A DNA stretch of 64,000 bases from Paracrocinitomix mangrovi (GTDB taxonomy: Bacteria; Bacteroidota; Bacteroidia; Flavobacteriales_D; Crocinitomicaceae): the NCBI RefSeq assembly GCF_019740355.2, contig NZ_CP091819.1, positions 992,001 through 1,056,000 on the forward strand, read 5' to 3'. Both the position numbers and the translations under genes were made by a program. The notes under the pieces were generated by a model. It was given only the letters and a program-made list of their open reading frames with translations, did not search any database and was not told the origin of the DNA. Positions 13,913 to 24,836 of the stretch are shown here, in pieces (within the stretch, counting starts at the first letter, position 1; each line of letters starts with the position of its first letter).

Positions 13913-15394
13913 TTACTTCAAAAATGGAACTGCTTTTTTGATCAGGTTTTTCAAATCTTCTGAAAGATTAAAAAAGTAAGCTACCCCTACAAAGACAGCC
14001 GTAAAAGATACAGCATTGATAATTATTTTAATTGAAGGAGTTGCATCATAATCAATAAAATGAGCAGCTAAAATGAAAAGTAAACTGAATATTGCAGCCT
14101 TTAAAAACTTTGAGTCAAATGGTTGAAATCCATATGTCTTCACCAGAAAAAACCAACGCATAAAATTTACTAAAATCATAGCAGTCATTGTAGCTAAAGC
14201 TGCTCCTTCTAAACTATATAGTTGAATAAAAATATAATTTAAAATAGTTACGAATACAGCAAGTGATAAATTAAAATAAGTGTTGAATTTGAATTTTTTA
14301 GAAGTACCTATTATGTTAGCATTTACCCCTGTAGCAAGCTCAACCAACAATCCTATCCCTAAAAAGAAGAAAACATACTTATTTGCATTATAAAGCAAAG
14401 ACTTATCTCCGGGTAAATAATGAATAGCGGGTTCAAGACAAGCCCAACCAACGCCAAGTAAAAAGGTTCCTATTAACAATTGATTCAAGCAACTCTTTTT
14501 GTAGACCTCATCAATATTATCAATATCATTATTCTTCCATGATTCTGCCAAAACAACTGTTGAAATTCTTCCAAGTGAACGAGAAGGAATAGACATTAAT
14601 CTCGCAGCAAAGAAATAGGTAGAATAAACCCCTAATGCCTCCAATGAAATTAGTTTATTCACCATTAAACTATCTATGTAAAATATAATAGAATTTGATG
14701 CTCCCATCAACACACCGAATCCAATGTATTGGAATATTTCTTTTCGAATTTCAGGCTGTCTAAACTCCTTTGAAGGGAGCGTAATACTAGTTGTTTTAAA
14801 CAAACCATAAAAGGTGATAATTAAGCCCGGAATGCACAGAGAAGATACGAACACCAAAGTAAGGTGGTCAAAGTTGAGCCAAGAAAGCGCAAACCCCATC
14901 AAACCCAACAACAATAATACTTTAGAAACTAAACCATCTAAAAATGCTCCTAACACGGTATTCATCAACATACCGGCATAACCATCCATGTTTCTGAACA
15001 AAACTCTAAAAAAGATAAGAGGAAAAATAAAAATGACAAAACTGCTGTAGTTGCCATAAACATCTGAATTTGGGAGTAAATAATCCTTGAGGAAGTAATA
15101 GGCAATAAAGGACATTCCAATACCGATAAAGGATAAAAATATCCCTAGCAAAAAGAATCCGTTATGTCCATTGCTATCATTTCTAAATCTAGGGAATAGA
15201 CGGGCTAAAATCTGATCAAATCCAAGAGAGAATATTGTCATGAACATTCCTGAAACAGCATCCAGCAAGGTTAAAAAACCAATTTGCATCTCAGACAATA
15301 TCACAGGCATTGACAATCTGGAAACTGCGCCAAATCCCGCACCAATAAAAGTTACTATGGTACTACGTAATGCCTGTTTTTGAATAATTCCCAA
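13913..15394 (-). CDS. Oligosaccharide flippase, Wzx/MATE-like
   Basis: A 493-residue polytopic membrane protein with about 14 predicted helices and almost no soluble loops, of the polysaccharide-transport (MOP) superfamily. Such proteins flip undecaprenyl-linked repeat units across the inner membrane. The N-terminus contains a typical first-helix region (ALRSTIVTFIGAGFGAVSRL). It lies 12 nt downstream of pseI, so it probably moves a pseudaminate-containing oligosaccharide. No Wzy polymerase is recognisable in the cluster, unless the YfhO-like protein or an unlinked gene fills that role. Confidence 0.82.
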   Translation of the reverse strand: MGIIQKQALRSTIVTFIGAGFGAVSRLSMPVILSEMQIGFLTLLDAVSGMFMTIFSLGFDQILARLFPRFRNDSNGHNGFFLLGIFLSFIGIGMSFIAYYFLKDYLLPNSDVYGNYSSFVIFIFPLIFFRVLFRNMDGYAGMLMNTVLGAFLDGLVSKVLLLLGLMGFALSWLNFDHLTLVFVSSLCIPGLIITFYGLFKTTSITLPSKEFRQPEIRKEIFQYIGFGVLMGASNSIIFYIDSLMVNKLISLEALGVYSTYFFAARLMSIPSRSLGRISTVVLAESWKNNDIDNIDEVYKKSCLNQLLIGTFLLGVGWACLEPAIHYLPGDKSLLYNANKYVFFFLGIGLLVELATGVNANIIGTSKKFKFNTYFNLSLAVFVTILNYIFIQLYSLEGAALATMTAMILVNFMRWFFLVKTYGFQPFDSKFLKAAIFSLLFILAAHFIDYDATPSIKIIINAVSFTAVFVGVAYFFNLSEDLKNLIKKAVPFLK

Positions 15395-15406: not shown

Positions 15407-16444
15407 TTACTTAAACATGTCTAATGAAAGTGGTGTTCCTTTAGCAGCATCTACAACAAAAGTTTTGCCTAAAGCTTCTTTATAATACTTTGGATGCAAT
15501 CCAAATCCCGGACGCACCGACTTAATATTTTCTTTCGTCACTACATCACCAGATTTAACATCAGCAGAAATATACAATGAACGAGAAAAATCACGTTGCC
15601 CTTTCATTTTATCATTGGTGACAAATTTGTTGACACCTACCATTTTTTCAGCCAATCTAACTGCATCAACCATTTCTTTAAATTCTTTTTCATCTAAAGA
15701 AAAATGTGAATCAACACCACCTTCAGATTTATCCAAAATAAAGTGTTTTTCAATTACAGTTGCCCCATATGCTATTGACATAACCGGTGCTACAATACCT
15801 AGAGTATGATCTGAAAAACCAGGTGTAACATTAAACTTATCGGCAATTGTAGCAATTGCTGAAAGATTAGCCTCATTTGGATCCGTTGGGTACGCAGAAG
15901 TACATTTGAGCAAGATAATATCGTTGTTATTCTGTCTTCTGCAAGCATCCAATGCCAATTCAATATCTTCTACTTCAGCAATTCCTGTTGAAATAATAAT
16001 AGGCTTACCTTTTGAAGCGGCATATTCAATTAAGGGAATATCCGTGATCTCATAAGAGGCAATTTTATACGCAGGAACATCAAACGTTTCTAACAAATCA
16101 ATTGCCGTAAAATCAAATGGAGATGAAAAACAAATCAAACCTTCTTCTTTTGCAGTTTCAAAAAGTGGCTTGTGCCAATCCCAGGGCAAATGAGCTTCTT
16201 CGTATAAATCAAACAAATATCTTCCATCCCAGGCAGTTCCATGCTTAATTTTAAATTGATCATTTTTAACATCAAGCGTAATAGTGTCAGCTTTATAAGT
16301 TTGAAGTTTGATACAGTCTGCTCCTGCTCGTTTTGCAGCTCTAACAGTTTCTTTAGCAATTTCAAGGCTACCATTGTGATTTGCCGACAACTCAGCTATA
16401 ATGAATGTTTTACCTTTTCCTATTTCAAAATCTCCTATTCTCAT
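15407..16444 (-). CDS. pseI: Pseudaminic acid synthase
   Basis: PseI condenses the free 2,4-diacetamido-trideoxy hexose with phosphoenolpyruvate to give pseudaminic acid. The 345-residue protein has the NeuB barrel (FIIAELSANHNGSLEIAKE, CIKLQTYKADTITL, KIASYEITD, IISTGIAEVEDIE, PGFSDHTLGI, VIEKHFILDKSEGGVDSHFS) and a C-terminal SAF antifreeze-like domain from about residue 285 (RSLYISADVKSGDVVTKENI). NeuB, LegI and PseI are similar in sequence; pseB and pseC in the same operon make PseI the best call. It starts 10 nt after the HAD gene. Confidence 0.88.
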   Translation of the reverse strand: MRIGDFEIGKGKTFIIAELSANHNGSLEIAKETVRAAKRAGADCIKLQTYKADTITLDVKNDQFKIKHGTAWDGRYLFDLYEEAHLPWDWHKPLFETAKEEGLICFSSPFDFTAIDLLETFDVPAYKIASYEITDIPLIEYAASKGKPIIISTGIAEVEDIELALDACRRQNNNDIILLKCTSAYPTDPNEANLSAIATIADKFNVTPGFSDHTLGIVAPVMSIAYGATVIEKHFILDKSEGGVDSHFSLDEKEFKEMVDAVRLAEKMVGVNKFVTNDKMKGQRDFSRSLYISADVKSGDVVTKENIKSVRPGFGLHPKYYKEALGKTFVVDAAKGTPLSLDMFK

Positions 16445-16454
16445 CTTGTAAAAA

Positions 16455-17123
16455 TCATAATTTTTGTAAAAGCTCAGGAGTCAACTCATCCAGTGATTTT
16501 ATTGACAACATTGCATCAAACCCTTTTTCTGCTTTATAATTACTATACGGGCCAGTTAAAACTCTTATTGTTTTGAATCCATTTTTATTTAAGTTAACAA
16601 AGTCTTTTTTTGGATTATCTGCAATATAAACCAGATCTGCAGGTTGAGCTTTTTCCCATTGTAAAATCTTGTTAAAACAATAAATACTTGGTTTGGCATT
16701 TTTTACACCATAATTGTGAGTAGGCATTGCCTTTTTAAAGTATTTTCTAATTCCCAGATGATCAATCTTCTTTGTTTGCACCACTTTATTGCCATCAGTC
16801 ACCAAATACATTGGATACTTTTCAAACCTTTTAAGGCAATCTTTTCCGGCTTTATGTAATGATATTTTTGGATTGTGAAGCCTGTAAACAGTTAAGCAAC
16901 TTTTCACCATTTTTTTTGAGTACAAATTGAATTTCTTCAGACCCAAATCAAACACTTTGCCTCTTCCCTCTTTATCAAGAATATCAATAAACTCTTTGTA
17001 AACGACATCTTTATCTAATCCTTTGTTTTGTTTTGACACAAAGTTGGCTACTGCCATAAAACCACTTTTCACATAAGTGATCTCCTCATACAATGTATCA
17101 TCCAAATCAAAAACAATTATCAT
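16455..17123 (-). CDS. HAD-family hydrolase in the pseudaminate locus
   Basis: A 222-residue HAD phosphatase with motif I VFDLDDTLYEE (two aspartates), motif II in LVTDGN, a lysine in KKAMPTHNYGVKNAKPS and motif IV in VYIADNPKKDF. The cap region is alpha-helical (type C1). Its ATG overlaps the stop of the SDR/ATP-grasp gene by 4 nt, which implies a linked job. A HAD enzyme dephosphorylates the 9-phosphate in sialic acid synthesis, but the Pse route has no such step, so its substrate is unknown. Confidence 0.8.
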   Translation of the reverse strand: MIIVFDLDDTLYEEITYVKSGFMAVANFVSKQNKGLDKDVVYKEFIDILDKEGRGKVFDLGLKKFNLYSKKMVKSCLTVYRLHNPKISLHKAGKDCLKRFEKYPMYLVTDGNKVVQTKKIDHLGIRKYFKKAMPTHNYGVKNAKPSIYCFNKILQWEKAQPADLVYIADNPKKDFVNLNKNGFKTIRVLTGPYSNYKAEKGFDAMLSIKSLDELTPELLQKL

Positions 17124-19018
17124 AAATACATGTCTTTAGGATATCTAATTTGTGTGACATCCTTGAATGATTTAATAAATGGATAATTGCTAATATTTTC
17201 TCCTATTGACTCTAGATAGAACCAATAAAAGGTATCCAAACCACACTGTATGGACAACATAGATGCTCCGCCAACTCTTGCATTACACTCAATCAACTGC
17301 ATTTTTTCTTTCTCGTCAATAAATGCTTGAAACGTAAGATGTCCCTTAAATGATTCTTGTTTAATAAAATCTGTAATAGTTGAAGTTATTGAATCACTAT
17401 TAAATGTCTTGGTGATTTGAGATTCACCATTTACCACTTTCACTCTTCTTCTTGGAATGATTCCCTTTACCTCACCGTTTTGATCAATATAAGCGTCAAT
17501 GGAAATCTCTTCTCCCTTTACATAAGGTTGAAAAATGGGGGATTCTAAAGTTTTTGCGTGTTCAATTGCAGCTGCTTTATCTAAATTCAATCCGATAGAT
17601 AATGAACCTGCACCAAAGCGTTCTTTTACAACAAAAGTATCTGCGTTTAACTGATCAACATCTTCAGTAGCTTCAATTACCAAGTTGGCCACTTTGTTAT
17701 ACTGTGCAAATTTTAATTTATCAAGACTAAAATCAATTGTTTTAGGATCAGACACCATCACATTGATTCCTGCCAATTTTAATGCTGCTTTTGCTTCAGA
17801 AAAATATGGAAGTTCTCCATCTCTGGTAGGGATGATAACACCTATATTTTGTTCTTTACAGTATTTTATCAAATCATCTACTGATAAGTTTTTTAATGCA
17901 GGCATCAACCAAAATTCATCTACAAAATATCTTCCCAAACAATCTCCGTCAATATCAGCCCCATATACTTTTGGTTGATCACTGATTTTCTTCACAGCAT
18001 CTTTTACAGCAGTAACCAATGGAACTTTCTTTGAAATACTTGTCACCAATACATTTGGCAAACTCACCTCAGTTTTAACTTCTCTGTTTTTCTCAAACTC
18101 AATGATATCAGGAATAGTATTTTCCAAATCTCTTTCAGGTACCCAGTTCAGGGTATTCTGTAAAAGGGTTACATCCGCCTGAGAAGCTTCGTAAGGAATA
18201 TCCGAATCCACATTCTCCGCCTCCATATTTGGGAAATGCTGTCTAAGAATATCAATTAACTCAGATACTCTTCTTGGTCTTCCTGTTCCCAAATTGATGA
18301 TTCCTTCATAATTTGACAAACCTAACCTTAACAATCCTTTAGCGGAATCTTCAGCATACAAATAGTCAAAAATCCCTTCAGGACGATAAATAAAAATCTT
18401 TTTATTATTCAATAAATCTCTTACCCAACGCGATATGACATCTCTAGAATTTCTACCATATCCTCTATAAATTCTTGCACAAACAGACGTAAATTGATCT
18501 CTTTTGAATTGACTTAAAAACTCCAATTCAATTTCGTGAGCCAATTTTGCCATTCCCGTTAAATTTCTTGGATTAATAGGATCGGTCTCTTTTAGCCTCA
18601 CAGCATTTTCTTGTGGCTGATCAAAATTGTAAAGTTTCTTATCGTAAATCAAATAGCTTGATGGAAAAACAACTCGTTTTAAAGCAGGCACATTTCTCAT
18701 CAATGTCATTAGGTGATTACTCAACCTTACATTGTGCCAAAAATTCTCTTCCCAATGCTCATACGTTTCAGTTGAACGCTCAAATGTAGCAGCCAAATGA
18801 ATGAAAATTTCCGGGTTAAATTCATTAAGTTCTTCTTGAGTAATATAATTAAGATCTCCTCTACGGTATTTAATCTTTGAAGGGAAACTATCCGGAATTG
18901 GTTCTAAATCTCCTGCCATTACAACAGCCCCATAATTCACCAAAATAGGAATCATCTCTCTTCCAATTACTCCGGCGGCTCCACTTACAAAGACTCTTTT
19001 ATTTTTATATTCCTCCAT
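17120..19018 (-). CDS. SDR-epimerase/ATP-grasp fusion protein
   Basis: A 632-residue two-domain protein. Residues 1-315 are an extended SDR with VFVSGAAGVIGREM and HLAATF, but the usual Y-x-x-x-K is T154-G-M-A-K158, so the catalytic tyrosine is replaced by threonine. Residues 325-632 are an ATP-grasp ligase-like domain (pre-ATP-grasp VLVTSISKKVPLV, nucleotide lysine in VVKERFGAGS, VKGEEISIDAY, and the metal ligands E and N in LIECNARVGGAS), close to the CarB type. Such a domain joins a carboxylate to an amine through an acyl phosphate. It sits between pseH and a HAD gene, overlapping both neighbours (14 and 4 nt). The product may decorate the nonulosonate, but this is inference. Confidence 0.8.
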   Translation of the reverse strand: MEEYKNKRVFVSGAAGVIGREMIPILVNYGAVVMAGDLEPIPDSFPSKIKYRRGDLNYITQEELNEFNPEIFIHLAATFERSTETYEHWEENFWHNVRLSNHLMTLMRNVPALKRVVFPSSYLIYDKKLYNFDQPQENAVRLKETDPINPRNLTGMAKLAHEIELEFLSQFKRDQFTSVCARIYRGYGRNSRDVISRWVRDLLNNKKIFIYRPEGIFDYLYAEDSAKGLLRLGLSNYEGIINLGTGRPRRVSELIDILRQHFPNMEAENVDSDIPYEASQADVTLLQNTLNWVPERDLENTIPDIIEFEKNREVKTEVSLPNVLVTSISKKVPLVTAVKDAVKKISDQPKVYGADIDGDCLGRYFVDEFWLMPALKNLSVDDLIKYCKEQNIGVIIPTRDGELPYFSEAKAALKLAGINVMVSDPKTIDFSLDKLKFAQYNKVANLVIEATEDVDQLNADTFVVKERFGAGSLSIGLNLDKAAAIEHAKTLESPIFQPYVKGEEISIDAYIDQNGEVKGIIPRRRVKVVNGESQITKTFNSDSITSTITDFIKQESFKGHLTFQAFIDEKEKMQLIECNARVGGASMLSIQCGLDTFYWFYLESIGENISNYPFIKSFKDVTQIRYPKDMYL

Positions 19019-19583
19019 AATCTTTTCTAATAATACCGTGCATTATTGAGTCGTGAAACTCATTGAATTCTCTAATATGCTGTCTTAATACTCCTTCTTT
19101 AACAAAACCATTCTCCTCAAGGATACTTATATGATAATGTCTAAAATCATAAGTTTCTGTGAACACTCTATTGAATTTCATTTCTTCAAAAACTAACATT
19201 TTGATTAGCGAAATAAAGCTAGACATACATGTTTTGTAATGTTTTTCGTCTGCTGCGATTTTATCATCAACTAAAAATGACATTTCAGCTCTTAAATCTC
19301 TCCATGAAATATTCACCAAGCCTCCATAACCTATCAGCTGATCATTTTCCAAGAAACTGAATAGCAATTGCGTTGGTTTCTCCTGTTCAAATAAAGGTGC
19401 CACCACCTTTTCAAAGTAGTTTTTTTGATCTTCAGGAGTTAAAGTCCTTTGCTGTCTTAAAACAGACATTTGATTATTTCGCCATTGCCTAATAGATTCC
19501 ATATCTTGAAACCTAATAGGGGTAATGACAAAATCACCTTTATCAAAAACATTATTATTAAGTGCACTGAATTGCTTCATCAT
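19005..19583 (-). CDS. pseH: GNAT acetyltransferase, probable PseH
   Basis: PseH N-acetylates the 4-amino group of the UDP-altrosamine intermediate. The 192-residue protein is a RimJ/RimL-type GNAT: it opens with ITPIRFQDMESIRQWRNNQ, has the strand-4 region with LIGYGGLVNISW, a region with FISLIKMLVFEEMKFNRVF, and ends with the typical late motif SILEENGFVKEGVLRQH. PseH orthologues share this order. The assignment rests on the locus, since GNAT substrate cannot be read from sequence. It overlaps both neighbouring genes. Confidence 0.75.
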   Translation of the reverse strand: MMKQFSALNNNVFDKGDFVITPIRFQDMESIRQWRNNQMSVLRQQRTLTPEDQKNYFEKVVAPLFEQEKPTQLLFSFLENDQLIGYGGLVNISWRDLRAEMSFLVDDKIAADEKHYKTCMSSFISLIKMLVFEEMKFNRVFTETYDFRHYHISILEENGFVKEGVLRQHIREFNEFHDSIMHGIIRKDYGGI

Positions 19584-20461
19584 TTTGTAAAAAAGCCAAT
19601 TAATTGTCTTCCTTGTCCAATTTTACCCATTGCATCATAGAAATCAATTAAATCATTCATGTCACCCGAATTATCATTCAAAAAGTTCTCAATGAAGATT
19701 CTGGATTGATGCGCATATTTACCAACTTCTTTGTTTTTGCTATAATTAGCAACTTCATTGGCCAAAAACCATTCGATAGGAAAATCTGAGATAACTTTAT
19801 GAGCGTTCCAGTTTACGGATTTACACAAATTGATCAAACTGTCTTTTGAGAAATAAGACAAGTGATCAGGTAATGCCACCCAATAATCACGTTCAATTTT
19901 ACCTGATTCTTTCAATGCTTTTTGCAATTTGGAAAAATCATTGGGAACTTCTATAACTAGCATTCCCCCATCATTGGTTAAATTCAAGCATGATTTTAAC
20001 AACGATTGAGGATCAATAACATGTTCCAATACATTATCCAACCAAATTAAATCATACTTATTTCCAGCTTGTTCTAATTGGTTCAAAGAATCAAATACAT
20101 TTCCCTGAATCAGGTGATCTGCTAAATGAGGATGATTTGATGATAATCCAAAATCACTAAAATCAATTCCTTTAACCTGCCATCCTTTTTTGAAATAATA
20201 GTCCATTGTGAAGCCTTCTCCACAACCAACATCCAAAAGCGAAGCAGATTCTTTTTTTAGGATTGATTCTATTACGTGATCTTTTTGGGCAATTTTGTTT
20301 CTAAAATACTGAAGTTCTTCAGCTGAATAGCTAGACCTGTATGTAGCATTTTCTTCTTGATAATACTTTTCTTCATAGTATGATCTAAGCTCTTCTTCTG
20401 AAGGTTTAGGAGTTACTTCATAATATCCAAAGTCAGTATTTAGTTTTATCTCAGAACTCAT
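19580..20461 (-). CDS. Class I SAM-dependent methyltransferase
   Basis: A 293-residue protein with a Methyltransf_23-like core: SAM-binding LLDVGCGEGFTMDYYFKKG, acidic residue in VKGIDFSD, and the later DLIWLDNVLEHVIDP motif. A flanking N-terminal region (EEKYYQEENATYRSSYS) is like that of sugar methyltransferases from polysaccharide loci. It probably methylates a sugar of this glycan, or the nonulosonate itself. It follows pseF by 48 nt, the largest gap inside this part of the operon, and an exact TAnnTTTG box lies in that gap. Confidence 0.8.
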   Translation of the reverse strand: MSSEIKLNTDFGYYEVTPKPSEEELRSYYEEKYYQEENATYRSSYSAEELQYFRNKIAQKDHVIESILKKESASLLDVGCGEGFTMDYYFKKGWQVKGIDFSDFGLSSNHPHLADHLIQGNVFDSLNQLEQAGNKYDLIWLDNVLEHVIDPQSLLKSCLNLTNDGGMLVIEVPNDFSKLQKALKESGKIERDYWVALPDHLSYFSKDSLINLCKSVNWNAHKVISDFPIEWFLANEVANYSKNKEVGKYAHQSRIFIENFLNDNSGDMNDLIDFYDAMGKIGQGRQLIGFFTK

Positions 20462-20509: not shown

Positions 20510-21193
20510 TTATTTGTTGAAACTGTATTTGAATTCTGCAATCTCCCAATCTGTTTCATTATCGATATCCTGTGCTTCCAGATCTGAAATTTCTATACAA
20601 GATGTATTACTTGTCCACATGGTACCTGCATTGATTATCACCTGAGGAACAAAAAAATAAAATTGACCTGCATCATGAAAAGCAGGCTCCAAATCTTGAG
20701 ATCTTGCCAGCATATTCTCCGGTTGAAACATTTCAATTTTATCGTCTTTTATCTTCAGCGCTCTTTGAATAGGGAAACTAAACCTCAATACAGGGAATAC
20801 GGCATCATAGCTGTTTGAAATTAACTTTTCTCTAGCCTCTATTAATCTTTTTTCACTAACAAAAGGAGCTGTAGGATAAATGCAACAAGCGATATCAAAT
20901 TCCTGCCCTTTTTGCTTATACATCTCAAAGACCTCTTTTAAAACATCTACTGTAGTGGCAAAATCATTGGCATTTTCTTCACTTCTAAAAAATGGAACTT
21001 TAGCACCATACTCTTCGGCAATCCTGGCAATTTCAGGATCATCTGTTGAAACCATTACTTCATCAAATAAACCCGAATTTATGGCGGTTTCAATTGAATA
21101 GGCAATTATAGGTTTCCCTAAAAAATCGCGGATATTTTTTCTTGGAATTCTTTTACTCCCACCTCTGGCCGGTATGACGCAAAGACTTTTCAT
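20510..21193 (-). CDS. pseF: Pseudaminic acid cytidylyltransferase
   Basis: PseF activates pseudaminic acid with CTP to give the CMP-sugar donor. The 227-residue protein starts with the CMP-NulO synthetase signature CVIPARGGSKRIPRKNI, followed by KPIIAYSIETAINSGLFD, VMVSTDDPEIA, a YPTAPFV motif and a late HDAGQFYFF. This is a single-domain form; in some relatives a PseG domain is fused to it, but not here. Its ATG overlaps the stop of pseC by 4 nt. Confidence 0.9.
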   Translation of the reverse strand: MKSLCVIPARGGSKRIPRKNIRDFLGKPIIAYSIETAINSGLFDEVMVSTDDPEIARIAEEYGAKVPFFRSEENANDFATTVDVLKEVFEMYKQKGQEFDIACCIYPTAPFVSEKRLIEAREKLISNSYDAVFPVLRFSFPIQRALKIKDDKIEMFQPENMLARSQDLEPAFHDAGQFYFFVPQVIINAGTMWTSNTSCIEISDLEAQDIDNETDWEIAEFKYSFNK

Positions 21194-22338
21194 GACAAAA
21201 AACTCAATACATTATTAATCACGTAATCTTGTTCTTCATCCTTTAAAGTTGGATACATTGGAAGACTAATACACTTTTGATAGTAGCTCTCCGCATTGCC
21301 CAAATTCGCCCCATCATACCCAATATTTTTGTAATAAGGTAAAGTATGAACAGGGATATAATGTATTTGAGCAAATATTCCGGCACTTCTCAAGTGATTA
21401 TAAAGTTCTTTTCTTTGCTCAACCTCAATTACAAATAAGTGATGGGCATTTAAAAAATTGTTAGGTAGATGCTGAAACTTAACTTTTCCTTCAAAAGCTC
21501 TCTTATACTTTTCAGCTATTTCATTTCTACGATCAACTCCTGCAGGATTCTTTTTCAGTTGCGTAATTCCCAGCGCAGCTTGCATATCTGTTAGTCTGTA
21601 GTTATATCCCAAGCTTTGCATCTCGTAATACCAACCACCATCATTTTGAGACATGTTTTCTTTGGTAATACCATGAGTACGTAGCACAGATAGCTTCTCA
21701 AAAATTGCCTTATTGTTAGTTGTTAACATTCCTCCTTCGCCACAAGCAATATGCTTTACGGGATGAAATGAAAACACAGTAATATCGCTGTAAACACAAC
21801 TTCCGGCTTTGATTTTTTGACCATGGCTATCTGAAAAATAGGCTCCAGGTGCATGGCATGCATCTTCTATGATCCATAAGTTGTGTTCATCTGCCAGTTT
21901 TCTAAAAGCTTCCGCATCTATAGGTAAACCGGCAAAATCAACCGGAATAATCCCTTTAAAAAAACCCTTAGGTTTTGATTCTATTAGCTTTCGACAGGCA
22001 TCAATGTCAAGTAAATAGGTTTCAGGATCAATATCTGCAAACCAAACTTCTCCACCAACATATCTTACACAGTTTGCAGAAGCTGCAAAGGTGATTGGAG
22101 TTGTAATTACTCTTTCTCCTTTTTTCAACCCCAGGGCCATAACAGCAATATGAAGGGCAGCCGTTGCATTGCTAACAGCTACTGCATAATCAGCATCCAC
22201 ATAAGCAGCAAATTCTTGCTCAAATTCAGCGATTTTTGGTCCTTGCGTTAGAAAATCAGACTTCAGGGTACTAATAACCGCATCAATGTCATCTTGATCA
22301 ATGTTTTGTCTACCATATGGAATTTTATACTCGGACAT
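21190..22338 (-). CDS. pseC: UDP-4-amino-4,6-dideoxy-N-acetyl-beta-L-altrosamine transaminase
   Basis: PseC transfers an amino group from glutamate to the 4-keto sugar made by PseB. The 382-residue protein is a DegT/DnrJ/EryC1 aminotransferase; the PLP lysine is K195 in FSFHPVKHIACGEGG, with AVSNATAALHIA for phosphate binding and WIIEDACHAPGA for ring stacking. It starts on the last base of pseB and overlaps pseF, so translation of pseB, pseC and pseF is tightly coupled. The size and position after pseB match PseC better than other family members. Confidence 0.92.
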   Translation of the reverse strand: MSEYKIPYGRQNIDQDDIDAVISTLKSDFLTQGPKIAEFEQEFAAYVDADYAVAVSNATAALHIAVMALGLKKGERVITTPITFAASANCVRYVGGEVWFADIDPETYLLDIDACRKLIESKPKGFFKGIIPVDFAGLPIDAEAFRKLADEHNLWIIEDACHAPGAYFSDSHGQKIKAGSCVYSDITVFSFHPVKHIACGEGGMLTTNNKAIFEKLSVLRTHGITKENMSQNDGGWYYEMQSLGYNYRLTDMQAALGITQLKKNPAGVDRRNEIAEKYKRAFEGKVKFQHLPNNFLNAHHLFVIEVEQRKELYNHLRSAGIFAQIHYIPVHTLPYYKNIGYDGANLGNAESYYQKCISLPMYPTLKDEEQDYVINNVLSFLS

Positions 22339-23360
22339 TACATTACTTCAAAAGAAGGATCTACGTGCTCTTTTATTAATTCTCTCAACGTTTCAACGGT
22401 TTCCCATTGCTCATTATTCCCTGAATTATAAGTAAATCCGGCAGGAACCGATTTAGCACCCATTTTTTGAACAAATTCAGGAGTGCTCCAATTTGTAACC
22501 GCAGGTAAAATCACATAATATTTACCAAGGTCATAAGTATAAAATGAATCAGAAGTTGTAATCATTTCTTCATGAATTTTTTCACCAGGTCTGATTCCTA
22601 CTTCTTTATGTTCTACACTTGGAGCAATTGCTTCTGCTACATCTGTAATTTTATAAGATGGGATTTTAGGAACAAAAATTTCTCCACCCCATGCATGTTC
22701 TAAAGCATGCATCACCATATCAACTCCACCGTCAAGTGAAATATTGAATCTGGTCATTGTTTTATCTGTAATTGGAAGGAAACCTTCTTTTCTTTTGTTT
22801 AAAAAGAAAGGAATAACAGAGCCATTAGATCCCATCACATTTCCATATCTAACTACAGAAAATTTAATTGGGTTAACTCCTTTAATATTATTTGCTGCAA
22901 CAAAAAGTTTGTCAGATGCAAGTTTAGTGGCTCCGTATAGGTTGATTGGAGCGGCAGCTTTATCTGTAGACAATGCCACTACCCTTTCTATTCCCGAATC
23001 CAATGCTGCATTGATTACATTTTCTGCTCCTAACACATTTGTTTTAACACATTCCATTGGATTGTACTCAGCCAAATGAACGTGTTTCATAGCAGCAGCA
23101 TGAATTACATAATTGACACCTTTAAAAGCTCTTTTAAGCCTGTCATAATCTCTAACATCCCCAATAAAATATCTAATTCTTGGATACTTTTCCTGAGGAA
23201 ACTCCTGGGCCATTAAAAACTGTTTTTGCTCATCTCTTGAGAAAATTACCAAACGTACATTTGGATATTTTGATAAGATTCTTTTTGTTAAAGCTTTACC
23301 TAAGGATCCAGTTCCTCCGGTTATTAAAATAGATTTATCGTTTAAGTCGAAATTTCCCAT
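22338..23360 (-). CDS. pseB: UDP-N-acetylglucosamine 4,6-dehydratase (inverting)
   Basis: PseB performs the first step of pseudaminic acid synthesis, C4-oxidation, C6-dehydration and C5 inversion of UDP-GlcNAc. The 340-residue soluble SDR has ITGGTGSLGKALTKRI, the catalytic D-K pair in STDKAAAPIN and Y142/K146 in NLYGATKLA, the pattern of the short PseB/FlaA1 enzymes rather than the long membrane WbpM type at 9341. It heads the pseBCF block, 60 nt after the end of the glycan-transfer-like gene at 23421. Confidence 0.92.
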   Translation of the reverse strand: MGNFDLNDKSILITGGTGSLGKALTKRILSKYPNVRLVIFSRDEQKQFLMAQEFPQEKYPRIRYFIGDVRDYDRLKRAFKGVNYVIHAAAMKHVHLAEYNPMECVKTNVLGAENVINAALDSGIERVVALSTDKAAAPINLYGATKLASDKLFVAANNIKGVNPIKFSVVRYGNVMGSNGSVIPFFLNKRKEGFLPITDKTMTRFNISLDGGVDMVMHALEHAWGGEIFVPKIPSYKITDVAEAIAPSVEHKEVGIRPGEKIHEEMITTSDSFYTYDLGKYYVILPAVTNWSTPEFVQKMGAKSVPAGFTYNSGNNEQWETVETLRELIKEHVDPSFEVM

Positions 23361-23420: not shown

Positions 23421-24836
23421 TCATTTAGTTTTTAAATCCTGCGACTTCCAAAATTCCAATAAAGTATCCTTTGTTAAGTTTTGTTCTTTATAAAACCTTT
23501 CAATAAAAGGATTGTATTTTGCCTGAAGTTCAGGAACGTGTTCTAATTTATACCTTTTAAAAACCCAATTAAATTTAGAAAACCAAGGCAATTTATTCAC
23601 TAAACCTATCTTATAAAAAGGCTTCATTATTTTGAAAAACAAATAGAGTCTGAAAAATTCCTTGTTACGCGTATATTTAATCTTTTTCCTATCTATTCTG
23701 TGAAGAGTTTCATTAAAATAGAATAGGTTTCTAATATGATTATAGCCATCACCAAAACCTATTGAATTTACAATGATTTCATTTCTTTTGGCTTTTAAAT
23801 CATCCGTTTCAAAATCGACAATTTTACCGGTATTGTAAAATTCCTGAATGTAATTATTCAATTGTTCAGGATTCCCGGCAATACAACATCCTTGGTAAAT
23901 ATCAACCCTGTCAAAATCAACTTCACTGTTTAAAAAAATTGTTGGTTGACTAGACATTAACCATGTTTCAATTGCGGAGGTAGTTTCAAATCCTAACAAT
24001 ATGTCAGAAACACTTATTAAATCGTGTATATTTTCAACGTGTCCTGTAACGTATAATACATTGTCATAATCTGCCAATTCAGACATTTCATTCAGCTGCT
24101 TAACGTTCAATCCAGGATAATACTCAGCCGGGTGTTGTTTTAAAATAAATAATGTGTCAGGATTGGATTCAATGGCATGCTTTAACATATCACGAACAAT
24201 CACTCTTTGTTCATTAACCCAATTTACTTTGGCTTCTCTTTTATCAGGATCTTGACTTATTTCTACTCTTCCTAATTCATATTGCACTTTACCAAATGCC
24301 CATCCAGAATACAAGATAACTTTCTCGAATTTTTCTTTGTTGTATTTGGCTAAAAAGTCAACTTTTTGGGCAAAATCGTACATCACGTACCTGTCAAAAC
24401 CTGCAGCTCCTGTAAGGACATATTTATCCTTTTGGTCCGGTGCTTTTTCTGACATATATTCAAGTGTCCTTTTTGACCAACACTGAACAAAATCTTGATA
24501 AAAATGTCTTTCGTTATTAAAACCAAAAAAATTGTGATTTATGTTCGTATTAAAGTTACCTTCTGAAATAAAACTGTATATCTTGATATTTAATTCATCC
24601 GCATATTTAGCAATCTTGTGATAAATAAGTGACCCAATGCAATTAGCAGGAATAATGACAAAATCAGGCTTATGTTTGGTAATTAAGTGAGCGTTCCATT
24701 TTAGTTCAAATATCACCTCACAGTTTAAAAAATGTTCTGCAGCAAAGACAATCGGAATAGCAATTTCAACATCTCTTCCAATATCTTCCTGTAAAAAGCA
24801 TAACCCTTTATATCTGGTAGAATTAAGTTCTTTCAT
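23421..24836 (-). CDS. Putative surface-carbohydrate glycosyltransferase, GT-B-like
   Basis: A 471-residue protein resembling the loosely defined 'surface carbohydrate biosynthesis' proteins of Bacteroidota and spirochaetes. The C-terminal half contains DTLFILKQHPAEY and a later segment ISVSDILLGFETTSAIETWL, reminiscent of the H-P and S-rich motifs in capsule/Kdo/sialyl-type GT-B transferases and CDP-glycerol transferases. No membrane segment is seen. As it sits directly before pseB, I suggest it as a candidate pseudaminate transferase, but the family itself is not firmly assigned. It overlaps the upstream GT4 gene by 14 nt. Confidence 0.55.
   Translation of the reverse strand: MKELNSTRYKGLCFLQEDIGRDVEIAIPIVFAAEHFLNCEVIFELKWNAHLITKHKPDFVIIPANCIGSLIYHKIAKYADELNIKIYSFISEGNFNTNINHNFFGFNNERHFYQDFVQCWSKRTLEYMSEKAPDQKDKYVLTGAAGFDRYVMYDFAQKVDFLAKYNKEKFEKVILYSGWAFGKVQYELGRVEISQDPDKREAKVNWVNEQRVIVRDMLKHAIESNPDTLFILKQHPAEYYPGLNVKQLNEMSELADYDNVLYVTGHVENIHDLISVSDILLGFETTSAIETWLMSSQPTIFLNSEVDFDRVDIYQGCCIAGNPEQLNNYIQEFYNTGKIVDFETDDLKAKRNEIIVNSIGFGDGYNHIRNLFYFNETLHRIDRKKIKYTRNKEFFRLYLFFKIMKPFYKIGLVNKLPWFSKFNWVFKRYKLEHVPELQAKYNPFIERFYKEQNLTKDTLLEFWKSQDLKTK

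Follow-up and report, generated by a model that had tools for sequence, protein, structure and literature searches.

Introduction

Pseudaminic acid (Pse) is a sialic-acid-like sugar whose canonical pathway, as found in Campylobacter and Helicobacter, runs through PseB, PseC, PseH, PseG, PseI and PseF in that order; PseG being the UDP-sugar hydrolase of the series. Here we describe a Pse locus within a 64,000-nucleotide stretch of the Paracrocinitomix mangrovi genome (NCBI RefSeq assembly GCF_019740355.2, contig NZ_CP091819.1, positions 992,001 to 1,056,000; hereafter ‘the window’, numbered from its first letter), where the pse genes are accompanied by a fusion of a short-chain dehydrogenase/reductase (SDR) with an ATP-grasp ligase, a phosphatase of the haloacid dehalogenase (HAD) type, and a protein with the GCN5-related N-acetyltransferase (GNAT) fold that we call GNAT-A; the fusion and its companions forming the ‘cassette’ discussed below. 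The reading that we favour, with a little less than even confidence and from sequence and predicted structure, is that this locus directs a CMP-pseudaminic acid pathway of a variant, PseG-less type, in which GNAT-A would replace PseG and the ATP-grasp half of the fusion would replace PseH, with the HAD phosphatase as its partner and the SDR half in a non-redox role.

Two described systems resemble the added parts. In Campylobacter jejuni, the ATP-grasp domain Cj1438C is described as coupling glucuronate with a phosphorylated amine, whose phosphate is taken off by Cj1435 (PMC11800379). The sfmABCDE cluster of Shewanella oneidensis, for a Pse-like flagellin sugar, is described as containing a putative methyltransferase (SO_3264) and an ATP-grasp_4 protein (SO_3265) (PMC3765264). 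Our literature search, whose coverage excluded most subscription journals, found no title or abstract opening that describes the cassette.

Results

GNAT-A occurs where PseG is missing

The genome containing the window is a single contig, 99.97% complete, and holds no PseG over the curated cut-off; just two partial matches are seen, of 28.6 and 20.4 bits. The five other genomes first examined likewise gave only weak partial matches. In an even draw of 395 genomes from the phylum (the window’s own included), PseI passes its cut-off in 56; PseG is present in 47 of these at E<=1e-15, a threshold at which some of the 47 fall below the curated cut-off, and absent in nine (G000, G218, G425 and six members of a single family, f17). 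A profile built from 25 GNAT-A sequences (A3) matches all nine PseG-less genomes at E<=8.9e-75 and none of the 47 PseG genomes at E<=1e-12, with eight further genomes, outside the 47, matching at 2.3e-21 to 7.7e-13. Since A3 held the nine genomes’ own sequences, a fairer test is its repeat with a profile of 16 sequences from outside the draw (A5; one is from Hymenobacter, the genus of G218): here the nine score 187–274 bits (E<=7.4e-55), and the top-scoring PseG genome 46.9 bits (5.9e-12). The value attached to this association, 1.3e-10, is too small to be read as a p-value, the nine loci having been inspected before A3 was built. As an aside, the distant GNAT-A relative at G270:C1:1619720-1620220 (L145; E 2.3e-21) lies near NeuB-like and SpsF-like genes, maybe as part of another nonulosonate locus.

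A scan of the GTDB genome collection with two SDR peptide patterns, which may have missed others, gave 37 loci with the cassette; L034 repeats L043, and L044/L035 and L062/L036 come from the same genomes. Among the genomes of the 28 loci (of 37) that were searched, PseG over the cut-off was found only in G542, at another locus. Both kinds of Pse locus coexist in this metagenome-assembled genome (MAG): L159, which carries PseG and lacks GNAT-A, and L041, which carries the cassette. In the Desulfobulbaceae MAG G559, a decayed PseG N-terminus containing stop codons sits directly upstream of GNAT-A (L066:9047-9430), and resembles the relic of a gene replacement.

The two states were mapped onto a PseI phylogeny with 71 rows (37 cassette, six f17, 28 PseG), from which L053 (short PseI) and L065, L070, L074 and L076 (no PseI in the stretch) are omitted; GNAT-A in the PseG rows was checked by whole-genome profile, except for L159, where 18 kb was covered. 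Ten changes of state are needed, six to seven of them forced by well-supported branches; a single clade of GNAT-A rows is rejected (p-AU 8e-74), and the genera g64 and g71 each contain both states. Seven independent pairs are supported and, because the two labels are complements by construction, these represent repeated swaps rather than a separate test; the sign-test p of 0.0156 gives nothing beyond the pair contrasts.

Two other candidates for the role of PseG were considered. The HAD phosphatase is rejected as its replacement: no relative of it is seen within 20 kb in any of the six PseG-less f17 loci, and among nine other genes, a selection from these loci, Pfam named no hydrolase, four of the nine falling in no family. 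A specialised PseI is weakened as a candidate, since on the tree the PseI rows with and without PseG do not sort into separate groups.

GNAT-A has the fold of PseH and no usual coenzyme A loop

GNAT-A (positions 19005–19583, minus strand) is modelled with a pLDDT of 96, and matches SpeG with a Z-score of 22.2 and Helicobacter pylori PseH bound to acetyl-coenzyme A (4ri1) with a Z-score of 21.4 and an rmsd of 2.0 over 169 aligned residues, at 15% identity. By Pfam and by fold the family is GNAT, with no homology to PseG; NCBIfam reports only PseH, weakly, at about 25.6–25.9 bits against a cut-off of 93.1. The WRN motif of PseH-like sequences is present. The R/QxxGxG/A coenzyme A (CoA) loop between β4 and α3 is absent from that position in all 49 GNAT-A sequences, with motif-like strings at other places in nine of them. 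GNAT-A is a PseH/SpeG-fold protein lacking the usual CoA loop, and our predicted PseG replacement.

The SDR/ATP-grasp fusion and its HAD partner

The fusion (632 amino acids, positions 17120–19018, minus strand) consists of an extended-SDR half with a UDP-hexose-epimerase fold (residues 1–315) and a PylC-like/PRK12767 ATP-grasp half (approximately 320–632). Pfam places Epimerase at 9–235 (5.1e-17), PylC-like_N at 323–420 (4.4e-10) and ATP-grasp models within 456–609; the AlphaFold model (pLDDT 87.3, pTM 0.86) matches the UDP-hexose 4-epimerases Mth375, TM0509 and MoeE5 over residues 1–318 (Z 32.4–33.9) and the ATP-grasp structure 2pn1 in its second half (Z 33.2). A threonine, T154, occupies the tyrosine position of the YxxxK motif (NPRNLTGMAK), as an earlier, sequence-only note on this DNA had pointed out, and the substitution proves general. 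Column 154 is threonine in 26 of 26 aligned fusions, the window’s included, with no aligned tyrosine, and a motif scan of the 37 loci finds threonine in 35 and cysteine in the two Chlamydiae loci (L074 and L076, MAGs in which the SDR and ATP-grasp parts are separate open reading frames, ORFs). G13, G16 and G19 of the GxxGxxG motif, D37, S121, Y122 and K158 are each invariant in the 26; of these Y122, adjoining S121, could substitute for the lost tyrosine.

The ATP-grasp half looks catalytically intact, again in line with the earlier note: its lysines K434 and K465 are invariant in all 26 aligned fusions, and E504, E577, N579 and R581, among them the E/N metal ligands, in all 25 alignment rows that reach them. 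It scores 159.3 bits with the curated PRK12767/PylC-like family NF009405, whose cut-off is 390 bits. The gene for the HAD-IA phosphatase (222 amino acids, positions 16455–17123, minus strand; HAD_2 in Pfam, 4.6e-11) overlaps that of the fusion by the four nucleotides 17120–17123 already noticed before. The enzyme keeps a full catalytic set, with D6, D8, T109, K144, D169 and D174 invariant in six of six aligned sequences (DxD, the motif II threonine, the motif III lysine and the motif IV aspartates).

The 37 loci are spread over Bacteroidota (many in Hymenobacter and Fluviicola), Thiolinea, Paraburkholderia, a Pseudomonadales MAG, a Desulfobulbaceae MAG, Pelosinus, a Falkowbacteria MAG and Chlamydiae. 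Three further full-length fusions turned up among 149 relatives, and the 395-genome draw holds, besides the window’s own, one more full fusion (G218). Because T154 and the pairing are conserved over so many taxa, chance or sequencing error is excluded as their explanation. GNAT-A adjoins the fusion or its split halves in all 37 loci. In 35 the fusion is followed downstream by the HAD gene, its regular partner, with methyltransferase genes intervening in L056 and L066. The contig of L070 ends inside the fusion, and L074, a 4.3-kb contig, is reordered as ATP-grasp, GNAT-A, SDR. PseI is found inside the fetched stretch in 33. Of the four remaining genomes, three have PseI elsewhere and for one Chlamydiae MAG none was found, so that the pairing and nonulosonate setting proposed before hold among loci found with the two patterns, and the pair is not broadly met outside such loci. 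In G425, from another family of the phylum, the ATP-grasp domain is instead fused directly to GNAT-A, with no SDR half (L037:9417-10970). A plasmid search returned a single record, an ATP-grasp-only match of 25% in Priestia.

The cassette may fill the N-acylation slot

Six PseG-less loci carry GNAT-A and no fusion (L126–L131, family f17), and in each an acylating enzyme is found beside GNAT-A: a PseH-type GNAT fused to it (L126, L128) or separate (L127, L130), a formyltransferase (L129), which predicts an N7-formyl Pse, or a RimJ-like GNAT (L131). The fusion loci were searched for PseH-like ORFs with a PseH-type profile; none of 2047 ORFs (from the window, L033–L037 and the 37) matches at E<=1e-3, and the best, at 0.0011, is a GNAT-A. 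Sequences within the profile score <=6.4e-57, and the controls from outside it 3.5e-39 (L133), 5.8e-14 (L132) and 5.8e-5 (L131); a very distant PseH could escape the profile, since the GNAT-A of L127 reaches 4.6e-5, near the L131 control. A BLAST comparison of the fusion-locus ORFs with four queries (the formyltransferase of L129, the GNAT of L131 and two GNATs of PseH type) returned one formyltransferase-like ORF (in L068) and one weak GNAT-A match.

The missing PseH-like ORF, the N-acylating enzymes beside GNAT-A elsewhere and the missing PseG together make the ligase the most likely source of the acyl group on N4 (later N7). Our inference from these patterns is of a constant part, GNAT-A, that stands in for PseG, and of a slot for N-acylation that is taken by the ATP-grasp fusion.

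Discussion

A proposed PseG-less pathway and its alternatives

The preferred reading would run as follows. PseB and PseC, assigned over curated cut-offs, should make UDP-4-amino-4,6-dideoxy-L-AltNAc as in the known pathway. The ATP-grasp half would then activate a carboxylic acid and join it to the 4-amine (later N7), in the place of PseH; the SDR half, its tyrosine lost, is probably a UDP-sugar-binding domain that ‘presents’ the substrate to the ligase rather than an oxidoreductase. The HAD enzyme may dephosphorylate the acyl group or its precursor, a suggestion made by analogy to C. jejuni Cj1438C/Cj1435 with the polarity reversed, and the acyl group or the sugar may be the target of the methyltransferase next to GNAT-A. 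GNAT-A, by its complementarity with PseG, would remove UDP, after which PseI and PseF could complete a CMP-Pse with an unusual N7-acyl group; the order of these steps is our proposal. As a possible history, which we hold with more doubt than the pathway itself, GNAT-A would have given up acetyl transfer for UDP-sugar hydrolysis and replaced PseG on many occasions, and the cassette would provide a second, ATP-driven N-acylation of nonulosonate precursors, using acids that lack a CoA ester in the cell.

The methyltransferase and an ORF of about 248 amino acids suggest that the acyl group is methylated. This ORF, seen in several loci, resembles a methyltransferase by eye, and the one in L036 has weak, sub-threshold methyltransferase/TylF Pfam matches. 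The methoxy-trihydroxyhexanoyl group of Treponema denticola is a possible acyl parallel, for which the literature search gave no useful paper. A Pse carrying di-O-methylglyceric acid occurs in C. jejuni (PMC3958885).

A number of observations weigh against this reading. GNAT-A is an acetyltransferase in Pfam (75.4 bits), and we know of no UDP-sugar hydrolase with the GNAT fold. Of seven acylating GNATs from other loci, viewed with the same patterns, five show the CoA-loop motif and two (L127, L131) lack it, so the missing loop alone is not decisive. Outside the locus, the PseH model finds two weak matches in the window genome, at 43.3 and 28.4 bits against a cut-off of 93.1; since the scores of four PseH-type GNATs from other loci are themselves no higher than 20.8–44.2 bits, this genome may have an unlinked PseH. 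The formyltransferase-like ORF of L068 (L068:106-756) is close to a second PseI, some 9 kb upstream of the cassette; the stretch perhaps holds two adjoining nonulosonate loci. S121, K158 and the NAD motif are kept, contrary to a purely structural SDR half, and in the C. jejuni precedent the polarity is the reverse. Six of the nine PseG-less genomes belong to f17; L065 (L065:8543-12564) holds methyltransferase, GNAT-A, fusion and HAD with no pse genes nearby, its PseI lying on another contig; and methyltransferase relatives, seen in 28 of the 37 stretches, were not found in nine.

An unlinked PseH would also suit the idea, close to that of the earlier note, of a late decoration: the ordinary pathway would run as far as PseI, and the ATP-grasp enzyme would amidate C1 of the finished or CMP-bound Pse, or acylate it elsewhere, with the HAD phosphatase trimming a phosphate. 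The ligase active site is intact, and there is a precedent for an ATP-grasp amide ligase that, paired with a phosphatase, uses a sugar carboxylate (PMC11800379). Yet N4 acylation would then be without an enzyme in the locus, unless GNAT-A performs it; GNAT-A keeps to the fusion or its split halves in 37 of 37 loci, elsewhere adjoins or is fused with an N-acylating enzyme, and in G425 is fused to the ATP-grasp domain itself, and we consider such a decoration improbable. Of the earlier proposal, the part that ties the pair to nonulosonate loci stands, whilst its late decoration gives way to a variant core pathway, which the evidence favours; the missing PseG and the GNAT neighbour went unmentioned there. 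The earlier interpretation is to that extent partly supported and shifted: the cassette would mark a PseG-less Pse pathway, the functions of its new parts being predictions. If GNAT-A were itself a divergent PseH N-acetyltransferase, UDP could be removed by a PseI that accepts UDP-sugars or by an unlinked hydrolase, and the ATP-grasp/HAD pair would add a second group. The PseH fold, the weak PseH-model match (25.9 bits) and the WRN motif speak for this; it is nonetheless unlikely, because four PseG-less loci (L126–L128 and L130) hold GNAT-A together with a PseH-type GNAT, the PseI tree is not split by PseG state and the usual CoA loop is absent.

The SDR half might instead be active despite T154, as a dehydratase or epimerase working through S121, Y122 and K158, and reshape the sugar before ligation to give an isomer or a new nonulosonate. 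Some SDR dehydratases (WbpM/PglF) are said to have another residue at the tyrosine position, and the NAD motif, D37, S121, Y122 and K158 are invariant here; on the other side, the column is never tyrosine in the 37 loci, and the ATP-grasp/HAD/GNAT-A set of L037 has no SDR half, so that an SDR step is not essential there. On balance we find an active SDR half rather unlikely. Shared ancestry alone, with GNAT-A loci and PseG loci as two old locus types and GNAT-A uninvolved in UDP removal, would account for the f17 majority among the PseG-less genomes of the draw; on the PseI tree, however, at least six to seven label switches are imposed by branches with good support, and two genera contain both locus types, which makes it very improbable.

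If correct, the PseG-less pathway would mean that Pse synthesis has a second enzyme for its UDP-removal step and that unusual N7-acyl groups can be installed by ATP-grasp ligases. For Tannerella forsythia, whose Pse has an N7-glyceroyl group, the gene responsible ‘remains elusive’ (PMC6120980); ligases of the cassette type would be worth seeking there, although its locus has pseG and pseH. A further lesson is that a genome’s lack of pseG is no ground for ruling out Pse synthesis.

Other genes of the locus

The locus forms an operon-like run on the minus strand, from 23360 down to 15407, in the order pseB, pseC, pseF, methyltransferase, GNAT-A, SDR/ATP-grasp fusion, HAD, pseI, with overlaps or near contact between most adjacent genes. 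All four pse assignments pass curated NCBIfam cut-offs: pseB, the inverting 4,6-dehydratase (22338–23360; TIGR03589, 506.4 bits), pseC, the aminotransferase (21190–22338; TIGR03588, 475.3 bits), pseF, the CMP-pseudaminate cytidylyltransferase (20510–21193; TIGR03584, 302.7 bits), and pseI, the pseudaminic acid synthase (15407–16444; TIGR03586, 496 bits). The S-adenosylmethionine-dependent methyltransferase occupies 19580–20461. Flanking the run, on the same strand, are a Wzx-like flippase downstream of pseI (13913–15394), named by eye from its translation, and upstream of pseB a glycosyltransferase of the BFO_1060 family (23421–24836; NF046086, 414 bits, above cut-off). BFO_1060 is presumably a T. 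forsythia locus tag, and BFO_1060-like genes hold the equivalent position in L034, L042 and L043.

Comparison with known systems

Among the relatives of single parts, the UDP-hexose 4-epimerases Mth375, TM0509 and MoeE5 share with the SDR half their fold, NAD motif and lysine, whereas the catalytic tyrosine is replaced by threonine or cysteine in all 37 cassette loci. The ATP-grasp half has the fold of the PylC-like/PRK12767 ligases (2pn1), a PylC-like N-domain and intact lysines and metal ligands, but stays far under the family cut-off and, within pse loci, has an SDR as its fusion partner (GNAT-A in the case of G425). GNAT-A shares the GNAT fold of H. pylori PseH, but is only distantly similar in sequence, lacks the usual CoA loop, occurs where PseG is missing and can accompany a PseH-type GNAT.

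Of the pathways, the C. jejuni glucuronamide synthesis by Cj1438C/Cj1435, compared by description, likewise pairs an ATP-grasp amide ligase with a phosphatase in a surface-sugar pathway; there, however, the sugar gives the carboxylate and the fold is described as TupA-like, whereas here the sugar would give the amine (PMC11800379). The S. oneidensis sfmABCDE cluster, also compared by description, shares a methyltransferase and an ATP-grasp protein in a cluster for a Pse-like sugar, and the part of the account used here does not mention an SDR fusion, GNAT-A or HAD (PMC3765264). With the canonical Pse pathway the window locus has PseB, PseC, PseI and PseF in common, all above curated cut-offs; it differs in that its genome has no PseG over the cut-off and the locus no PseH-like ORF, and in that GNAT-A, the ATP-grasp fusion, the HAD phosphatase and the methyltransferase are found instead.

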